Shown here: piece by piece, positions 28,974 through 31,736 of the stretch | Layout of the letters: each line of letters opens with the position of its first letter | How positions within the stretch are numbered: the first letter of the stretch is position 1 | DNA from: Hyphomonadaceae bacterium | Lineage (GTDB): Bacteria > Pseudomonadota > Alphaproteobacteria > Caulobacterales > Aquidulcibacteraceae | DNA: 64,000 nucleotides | Direction of reading: 5' to 3' | Assembly (NCBI GenBank): GCA_016791385.1 | Contig: JAEUMR010000049.1 | Span: 1-64,000, forward strand | The notes under the pieces: generated by a model | Told to the model about the DNA's origin: nothing | Seen by the model: only the letters and a program-made list of their open reading frames with translations | Databases searched by the model: none | Position numbers and translations under genes: made by a program

Positions 28974-30578
28974 ATGAGTCTTGCCCGCAATACATTCGTG
29001 CAGGCGTCCTTGACGCTTGCGAGCCGCGTGCTCGGCTTTGCCCGCGATCTTGTCGCCAACGCTCAATTCGGCGGGCAGGGGCCGCTGATGGACGCGTTCG
29101 CCACCGCGCTCATGTTCCCGAATCTGTTCCGCCGCCTGTTCGCCGAGGGCGCGTTCGCGCAGGCCTTCGTGCCGATCTACGCGCGCGACCGCGCCGAGCA
29201 CGGCGCTGATTCAGCCGACCACATCGCCTCGGAAGCGATGTCGTTCTTGCTGTTCGTCGTCGCCGTCTTCTGCGTCGTCGCACAGGTCGCGATGCCGTTC
29301 CTGATGCCGTGGCTGCTTTCGGCATACACCGACGACCCCGGCGTGCTCACCACCGCGACTTTGATGACGCAGCTCACCATGCCGTATCTCGCGTGCATGA
29401 CGCTGGCCTCGCTGCTCTCCGGCGTGCTCAACACGATGGGGCGCTTTGCACTCTCCGCCGGCGTGCCGACCTTGCTCAATGTCTGCACCATCGCGGCGCT
29501 GTTGTTGGCGCCCGACAGCGCCGCTGCAGCGATTTGGGTGTCGGTCGCCGTCACCATCGCGGGCGTGTTGCAGGCGGGATTGTTGTGGTGGGGCGCCCAG
29601 CGCATGGGTGCGCGTCTGCGCTTCGGCCTGCCGCGCATAACGCCGGCGGTGAGCCGCGTCCTGCTGCTCGCCATTCCTGGCGCGCTGGCGGGCGGGGCGA
29701 TGCAGATCAATTCGCTGGTGTCGCAACTTCTCACCGGCACTGACGAAGGCGCCCGCTCGGTGCTCTACAATTCTGACCGGCTCTACCAATTGCCGCTCGG
29801 CCTCATCGGCGTCGCCGTCGGCCTTGCGCTGGTGCCGCGCCTGTCGCGTCACCACGCGGCAGGGGAGGTCGAGGCTGGCAGCGCGGCGATGGACGATGCG
29901 ATCGGCCTCTCGATGGCGCTGACCGTGCCGGCGGCGATCGCCTACATCGTCATGCCGTACTTCATCATCGACGCCACAGTGACGCGCGGCGCGTTTACAC
30001 ACGACGACGCGCATCGCACTGCGGAGGTATTGCGCCAGTTCGCCTGGGGCGTGCCGGCCTTCGTGTTGGCGAAGGTGTTCACCCCGCCGTTCTTTGCGCG
30101 GCAGGACACGCGCCGGCCGATGCAGTTCGCGGTGACCACTGTGATCGTGAACACGCTGCTCGGCGCAGGCCTCTTCTTCACGCTGCCGCGCTTCGGCGTC
30201 GACGGCGTGATCGGGCTCGGCATGGCCACCAGCGTGGCTGGCTGGCTCAATGTGCTGCTGCTGTCGTCGACGCTGGCGCGCGAGGGAACTTATCGCATCA
30301 GCGCCCAGGCCTGGGGCCGTCTGGCGCGGCTCGGCGTCGCCTGCCTGATCATGGGCGTGTTCGCTGGCGTCTGCGCGATGAACTACGCCGCCTTGTCGCA
30401 GCTGCTGTGGCGCAAGGAAGTGGCGGTGCTCGTCGTCGCCTTCGCCGCTTTCGTGCTCTATTGCATCGCCGCCCTGGCGCTGCGCGCGGTGACCATCCGC
30501 GAAGTCCGCAACGCGCTGCGGCGCGAGCGCGGCGCGCCAGCCGGGGGAGGCGCCTTGCAGTCAGGCATGGAGGGCTGA
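28974..30578 (+). CDS. murJ: Lipid II flippase MurJ (MviN)
   Basis: A 534-residue polytopic membrane protein of the MATE-like MviN family that moves lipid II across the inner membrane for peptidoglycan synthesis. The N-terminus RNTFVQASLTLASRVLGFAR, then the MDAFATALMFPNLFRRLFAEGAFAQAFVP block, is highly characteristic. Expected 14 membrane segments are consistent with the hydrophobic runs. RLYQLPLGLIGVAVGLALVP is the other family signature. Located 33 bases after glnD and upstream of the trpS leader region. Confidence 0.95.
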   Translation: MSLARNTFVQASLTLASRVLGFARDLVANAQFGGQGPLMDAFATALMFPNLFRRLFAEGAFAQAFVPIYARDRAEHGADSADHIASEAMSFLLFVVAVFCVVAQVAMPFLMPWLLSAYTDDPGVLTTATLMTQLTMPYLACMTLASLLSGVLNTMGRFALSAGVPTLLNVCTIAALLLAPDSAAAAIWVSVAVTIAGVLQAGLLWWGAQRMGARLRFGLPRITPAVSRVLLLAIPGALAGGAMQINSLVSQLLTGTDEGARSVLYNSDRLYQLPLGLIGVAVGLALVPRLSRHHAAGEVEAGSAAMDDAIGLSMALTVPAAIAYIVMPYFIIDATVTRGAFTHDDAHRTAEVLRQFAWGVPAFVLAKVFTPPFFARQDTRRPMQFAVTTVIVNTLLGAGLFFTLPRFGVDGVIGLGMATSVAGWLNVLLLSSTLAREGTYRISAQAWGRLARLGVACLIMGVFAGVCAMNYAALSQLLWRKEVAVLVVAFAAFVLYCIAALALRAVTIREVRNALRRERGAPAGGGALQSGMEG

Positions 30579-30592
30579 TAGAGAGCCGCCCC

Positions 30593-30631
30593 ATGAACGT
30601 GACGAACAAACTCTGGCGATGGCGGGCCTGA
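30593..30631 (+). CDS. Candidate trpS leader peptide (12 aa, Trp-Arg-Trp)
   Basis: Short ORF ATG...TGA encoding MNVTNKLWRWRA in the 123-base gap between murJ and trpS. Two of 12 codons are TGG, separated by one Arg codon, and the ORF ends 15 bases before a terminator-like hairpin. Trp is the rarest amino acid, so two in so short an ORF directly before the tryptophanyl-tRNA synthetase gene is a strong hint of ribosome-mediated attenuation, in which scarcity of charged tRNA-Trp stalls the ribosome at the Trp codons. The ribosome-binding site (AGAGAG, about 8 bases upstream) is modest. Inference; not tested. Confidence 0.55.
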   Translation: MNVTNKLWRWRA

Positions 30632-30646
30632 CCTGACGCCGCTTCC

Positions 30647-30676
30647 GCGCGCCTGAAGAGCGTCTTCCTAGCGCGC
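30647..30676 (+). terminator. Candidate attenuator hairpin upstream of trpS
   Basis: GCGCGC (30647-30652) pairs with GCGCGC (30671-30676), and inside it GAAGA (30655-30659) pairs with TCTTC (30663-30667) around a GCG loop: an 11-bp stem with one internal loop. It is followed by CTGTTCTC, a weak T-rich tract, and ends 15 bases before the trpS ribosome-binding site (GGAG at 30692). Its position 15 bases after the leader ORF stop fits a transcription attenuator. I did not find a convincing long antiterminator by eye; GGCG/CGCC pairing at 30621-30640 is a weak candidate. Confidence 0.45.
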
Positions 30677-30701
30677 CTGTTCTCATGTTCCGGAGTTTCC
30701 C

Positions 30702-31736
<1,035 letters not shown>

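Follow-up and report, generated by a model that had tools for sequence, protein, structure and literature searches.

A conserved Arg-Trp-Arg leader ORF and a long-range RNA stem before trpS in Caulobacterales suggest a translational attenuator

We asked whether a short open reading frame (ORF) that lies in front of the tryptophanyl-tRNA synthetase gene of a Hyphomonadaceae bacterium could serve to control this gene. The window, that is, the whole stretch of 64,000 nucleotides analysed here, carries murJ (28974..30578) and behind it trpS (30702..31736, ATG at 30702), the presumed target of regulation; all features described below lie on the + strand. An earlier note on this DNA had named both neighbours from the letters, and both exceed their NCBIfam cut-offs (murJ: TIGR01695, 338.7 bits versus 235.55; trpS: TIGR00233, 326.9 bits versus 176.75). 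The same note had described a 12-residue ORF with two TGG codons in the gap, an interrupted stem at 30647-30676, and 15 nt both between the end of the ORF and the stem and between the stem and the trpS ribosome-binding site. On recheck the ORF (30593..30631, MNVTNKLWRWRA, ATG at 30593, stop codon at 30629-30631), its two TGG codons, the stem and both spacings were all as described. The Shine-Dalgarno (SD) sequence of trpS is GGAG (30692..30695), invariant across the 24 rows of our genus alignment (A1). A scan of 30300-30900 against Rfam, with E values up to 5, contained no T-box, and the only known RNA family that it matched was mir-598, far below the gathering score of that family. A trpS match was found in 60 of 61 relatives; in one single-contig genome (L115, G023:C1:4047307-4048339) it consists of two adjacent pieces, perhaps because of an assembly error.

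As a single ORF of this kind might be due to chance, conservation decides whether the leader ORF is real. The note had proposed to compare the murJ-trpS gaps of related genomes, and in these the ORF turned out to be conserved: a short ORF with Arg-Trp-Arg (RWR) at or near its end precedes trpS in 24 of 29 readable genomes of the same genus (30 were searched; in G028 the contig ends inside trpS), in 7 of 13 genomes read from other genera of the family (L030, L146, L147 and L149-L152) and in 29 of 41 Caulobacteraceae genomes (family f3), which were chosen from the matches listed with leader presence ignored. It was present in none of seven genomes sampled from families f2, f4 and f5. Among 78 further named loci (from the best 80 of 586) 13 have the leader; those named to genus or family are Brevundimonas, Phenylobacterium, Caulobacter or Caulobacteraceae, and three are metagenome-assembled genomes named to class or phylum. 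The one named Caulobacter locus that was fetched (L058) has an RWR leader before trpS, and the leader region of L169 (G144) is the same as that of the Brevundimonas aurantiaca locus L040, in keeping with the assignment of f3 to Caulobacteraceae. For the distinct-leader table the duplicate regions L169 and L184 were removed, and one of the 71 distinct rows (L161, with CGC) was dropped from the recount and from the tests of pairing because it sits in murJ coding sequence, which left 70 leaders.

The nucleotide motif CGATGGCG occurs in 73 of 102 regions upstream of trpS, a count that is not a frequency because 13 of the 102 regions were added for already showing RWR. In 72 of the 73 cases an ATG and a nearby stop codon share its frame, while its other two frames are open in this way in 0 and 1 of 73. 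Since selection by RWR could be circular, we also listed short ATG ORFs with Trp without the RWR filter; RWR was found in 72 of the 102 regions, another Trp in 5 and none in 25. The stop codon varies among the 70 leaders (TGA in 64, TAG in 4, TAA in 2), the start codon in L151 is GTG, and in the genus member L028 the leader is longer by 12 bases, in frame. The kept frame, the varying stop codon and the in-frame change of length indicate a translated ORF; by its conservation, the leader ORF is genuine. The distance from its stop codon to trpS is 42-96 nt across the 70 tabulated leaders. Beyond this range, the leader of L146 (G079), MALNRFFLLAERWRA, ends 155 nt before trpS.

Is the leader indispensable? 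It is missing in 5 of 29 genomes of the genus (L019, L021, L022, L023 and L025, the last judged by eye) and in 12 of 41 sampled Caulobacteraceae genomes, and hence it can be dispensed with. In the five loci of the genus trpS begins 12-17 nt past the murJ stop codon. By eye, trpS follows directly upon murJ or upon a promoter-like box in L019, L021-L023, L025, L163, L164, L166, L179 and L186, a pattern that would fit loss of the leader cassette as a whole. As a separate observation, murJ of the window is 77-78% identical to murJ of L019 and L023, both leaderless, versus ∼42-53% to the other compared loci of the genus, and its trpS is closest to that of L004 (92%). This differing relatedness suggests that murJ of the window was recombined or replaced.

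Next to the frame, which part of the leader is constant? The note had counted on two Trp codons; the second one (30620..30622) is conserved, but the first (30614..30616) is optional, with Trp at this place in 30 of 70 leaders. The constant feature is no run of Trp codons; it is RWR close to the end of the peptide, written CGA-TGG-CGN. The residues ahead of RWR differ widely, and the tails behind it comprise 0 to 5 residues. The first Arg codon (30617..30619) is CGA in all 70 leaders, while the second is free (CGC in 36, CGG in 30, CGT in 3 and CGA in 1). In nearby genes CGA makes up 1.7-2.1% of Arg codons (3 of 177 in five genes of the window, 11 of 517 in trpS genes of the genus and 4 of 240 in trpS genes of Caulobacteraceae). 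As CGA is rare elsewhere and nevertheless present in 70 of 70 leaders, selection appears to act on the synonymous choice ahead of the Trp codon. A second ORF starting at the ATG within CGATGG was considered as the cause of this choice and discarded, since its length, frame and end all vary. No base-pairing partner of the core was recognised by eye, and pairing of the core with the region before trpS was no better in cognate than in swapped combinations (11,576 of 20,000 permutations, 30 representatives).

CGA is known from a bacterial his-leader attenuation assay as a codon that causes much stalling, according to the available part of that report (PMC4046918), and by analogy its slowness may extend to the trpS leader. 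In one single-contig genome of the genus the tRNA-Arg anticodons are ACG, CCG, TCT and CCT; tRNA-Arg TCG was not among the 51 tRNA matches, an incomplete set from which tRNA-Ile GAT and tRNA-Ala TGC are missing and in which one match was unconfirmed by ARAGORN. Judging from this set, CGA is likely read by the ACG (inosine) tRNA. A side observation from the ARAGORN search concerns L244 (G027:C1:611730-612140), where four tRNA-like genes, three for Leu of 76 nt and one for Ser, stand close together; this is unusual for Leu tRNAs and possibly a mobile element or a degenerate tRNA array.

Where would transcription of the leader start? A putative −35 box, TTGCAG (30555..30560), lies in the last murJ codons, and a putative −10 box, GATAGA (30577..30582), overlaps the murJ stop codon. 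In most of the genus the −35 box reads TTGCCG, and TGATAGA or near variants stand at −10. TTG[TC]C together with a −10-like tetramer was found before 49 of 70 leaders, 43 of them with one spacing, compared with 5 of 840 control windows; TTGCAG, with A at its fifth base, falls narrowly outside TTG[TC]C, so the window does not count towards the 49. The leader ATG follows the end of the −10 hexamer at 7-10 nt in 49 of 50 such cases (duplicates counted), so that the mRNA is probably leaderless or nearly so. The transcript thus probably starts a few nt before the leader ATG, and the promoter pattern makes it unlikely that a transcript start upstream of the leader is absent altogether. By eye, several genomes without the leader have a similar box directly before trpS.

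We then considered the RNA. The fold of the murJ-trpS gap as a whole is unremarkable (z −1.20; 25 of 200 shuffles were as good). Minimum free energy folding joins the first codons of the leader to the stretch immediately before the trpS SD in a long-range stem, which we call P1. Its 5′ strand (30595..30608) consists of GAACGUGA, the bulged C30603 and GAACA, and its 3′ strand (30678..30690) is UGUUCUCAUGUUC, ending one base before the SD. In the 24 sequences of the genus P1 is paired in 87.1% of cells versus 84.1 ± 0.6 in shuffles, slid registers pair in 26-51% of cells, and cells changed on both sides number 10 versus 4.5 ± 1.3 in shuffles (0 of 500). Counted as pairs with two-sided change, the number in A1 (4 versus 2.3 shuffled, 40 of 500) does not go beyond the shuffles. 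RNAalifold, unprompted, predicts 8 of the 13 P1 pairs, with a small covariation term (−0.1).

Because sequences outside the genus align poorly, we used a swap test in which the pairing of each leader start with the pre-trpS region of its own genome was set against its pairing with foreign ones. Cognate P1 duplexes beat swapped ones within the genus (p 0.00055, n = 24) and outside it (p 0.0028, n = 46), and overall the difference was reached in 0 of 20,000 permutations (n = 70). In a set of 30 representatives, all pairwise likenesses being below 0.75, the observed value was reached by 2 of 20,000 permutations, and the control pairings in the same set were not significant (leader start with trpS, 15,420 of 20,000; promoter with the pre-trpS region, 1,637 of 20,000). 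The same pairing is made by unrelated sequences in L046 (CUCCGGAAG with CUUCCGGAG) and, with one mismatch, in L151 (GAGACGAAAC with GUUUCGCCUC). Pairing is poor in certain lineages, for example L160, L181 and L185. Taken together, these comparisons support P1 as an RNA element of the trpS leader. The note had asked for covarying stems; covariation is seen, but in P1 and not in the hairpin at 30647-30676 that it had in mind.

How could the leader ORF, its core, P1 and the promoter, as genome comparison brought them out, work together? The reading that we prefer, with a probability of about 0.6, is a cis-acting translational attenuator that matches synthesis of the synthetase (TrpRS) to the supply of charged tRNA-Trp. 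From the promoter that overlaps the murJ end, transcription would begin a few nt ahead of the leader's start codon, and the first ribosome would translate the 12-codon leader. With ample Trp-tRNA this ribosome would finish the leader and depart, upon which the first leader codons could pair before the trpS SD as P1 and shut the starts of both the leader and trpS. With scarce Trp-tRNA the ribosome would wait at CGA-UGG, P1 would stay open, and trpS would be translated until charging is restored. With UGG in the A site, the invariant CGA would occupy the P site as a slow codon and probably sharpen the pause. We infer that the ribosome stalls, in which direction control runs and that it acts on translation. 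Translational attenuation is known from erm-type resistance genes, in which pausing of a ribosome on a leader ORF makes the start site of the following gene accessible; the signal there is a drug-bound ribosome, whereas here it would presumably be uncharged tRNA-Trp at the codon.

Thermodynamic predictions of the cost of opening the trpS start bear on this scheme. Over all 70 leaders the predicted cost is 9.4 kcal/mol for the free RNA, a ribosome placed on the stop codon lowers it to 8.5 and one on UGG to 7.0; with the leader starts of other genomes it is 7.8 kcal/mol. In the genus (n = 24) the values are 12.6, 10.4 and 7.2 kcal/mol, respectively, with UGG below the stop codon in 24 of 24, and in the window (L003) they are 12.7, 10.1 and 7.8 kcal/mol. 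According to these predictions, P1 makes the trpS start of the genus costlier to open. Outside the genus the three states, in the same order, differ little (7.8, 7.5 and 6.9 kcal/mol), the cost at UGG being below the free value in 30 of 46 leaders and below the value at the stop codon in 27 of 46. In some leaders, for example L046, a ribosome stalled at UGG would sit immediately downstream of P1 and would have to block the stem sterically.

Could the hairpin act instead, as the note had supposed, by classical transcription attenuation? The GC-rich interrupted hairpin, P2 (30647..30676), is enclosed by P1, and would in that case act as a terminator, except when stalling of a ribosome at the Trp codons shifts the RNA to another fold. 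A leader with Trp codons and a hairpin at a similar position are found in most of the genus, and trpE(G) of Sinorhizobium meliloti offers a precedent (PMC7298713, as far as the accessible text goes). P2 was nevertheless rejected as a terminator. The note had itself called the T-tract weak, correctly, as at least 6 T among the 10 nt after the last helix are present in 2 of 70 leaders and at least 5 in 11 of 70. A simple scan, a weak test, gave no terminator-like and no sigma-70-like site in the window (0.4 and 0.0 expected), and stems in the hairpin stretch are barely longer than in shuffles (mean 5.96 versus 5.45 bp in the genus, 6.0 versus 5.28 outside it; mean z −0.13 over 70). RNAalifold showed no covarying antiterminator to compete with the hairpin, and P1 and P2 are compatible in the window's own fold, so the covarying stem can coexist with the hairpin and need not compete with it. 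We therefore regard termination at P2 as unlikely. Pausing-based control of trpS transcription may also come into play. A conserved CCA loop, as in a tRNA-like hairpin that TrpRS might bind, was not seen by eye among the hairpins.

Slightly less likely still is attenuation by Rho, in which release of the leader ribosome would leave an untranslated segment that lets Rho stop transcription before trpS, and a stalled ribosome would prevent this; the lack of an intrinsic terminator and the pyrimidine-rich segment after the hairpin in the window would suit such a scheme, but the contact of P1 with the trpS start region fits control of translation better. About equally improbable is a peptide arrest of the TnaC kind, with Arg-Trp-Arg as an arrest motif that senses free tryptophan or another signal. 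RWR is indeed constant in an otherwise changing peptide, and its second Arg persists although the third base of the codon is free; the invariant third base of CGA, however, finds no explanation in this way, and neither the high variability of the residues ahead of RWR nor the varying tails are what an arrest peptide would lead one to expect. Translated leaders have also been proposed to boost translation of the next gene by reinitiation or by unfolding RNA upstream of it (PMC4833913, in the part available), but a trpS leader of this kind, insensitive to tryptophan, is very improbable here, as the distances from the leader stop codon to trpS are far from the proteobacterial peak of 10-13 nt given in the same source and constant Trp and CGA codons would be unnecessary.

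Returning to the translational attenuator, a lone Trp codon would be a weak sensor compared with the runs found in trp leaders. A tentative extension, to which we give somewhat less than even odds, is that the charging sensor is made from codon context: a selected rare CGA, read by inosine wobble in the P site, would stand directly before UGG and predispose the ribosome to pause there, with P1, which joins the 5′ end of the transcript to the trpS start, as the readout. If so, a synonymous codon would be the essential part of a natural attenuator. The invariant CGA would provide a natural and directly testable instance of codon context as the conserved part of a regulator. The data suggest that an essential tRNA synthetase is under feedback control in a large group, to which the model Caulobacter belongs, through a leader that would make do with one or two Trp codons and no intrinsic terminator.

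Finally, we asked how far this element has been met before. In the open-access literature we found no description of the CGA-UGG motif or of P1 at trpS in alphaproteobacteria. The note had thought a peptide attenuator on trpS unusual for an alphaproteobacterium, which is too strong, as ribosome profiling in Caulobacter crescentus has reported a small leader CDS in the trpS mRNA (PMC4117421). The gene, the order and a short ORF before trpS, translated in C. crescentus, are common to both cases; Trp codons, CGA, an RNA stem and regulation are not described in the accessible part of that report. Going by L058 and the 29 of 41 Caulobacteraceae genomes, the two are probably the same element, and regulation by the leader would give a function to a CDS whose role ribosome profiling had left open.

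Other systems share parts of the design. The trpL leader of Sinorhizobium is likewise a Trp leader peptide in an alphaproteobacterium, but it attenuates a different, biosynthetic gene, trpE(G), by transcription termination, and its class typically has several consecutive Trp codons (PMC7298713, in the text available). In the LEU element of actinobacterial leuA, as far as PMC1262725 could be consulted, the basal pairing likewise joins leader ORF sequence to the region of the downstream SD; there the run of Leu codons pairs with the SD, whereas in the trpS leader the first codons pair just upstream of it. Attenuators with a short leader peptide and a Trp codon before trpS have also been predicted in Streptomyces, namely S. 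avermitilis trpS2 (PMC1262725) and S. lividans trpL2-trpS (PMC8079986), where trpL2 encodes MMTRTCTQLWRAA and is reported to be leaderless and to have no U-rich stretch. These are actinobacterial and proposed to act on transcription, and in the available text trpL2 has no Arg before its Trp; the trpS leaders of Streptomyces and Caulobacterales probably arose independently. The trpL2 peptide ends in LWRAA, which resembles LWRWRA of the window, a likeness that is either convergent or due to chance.
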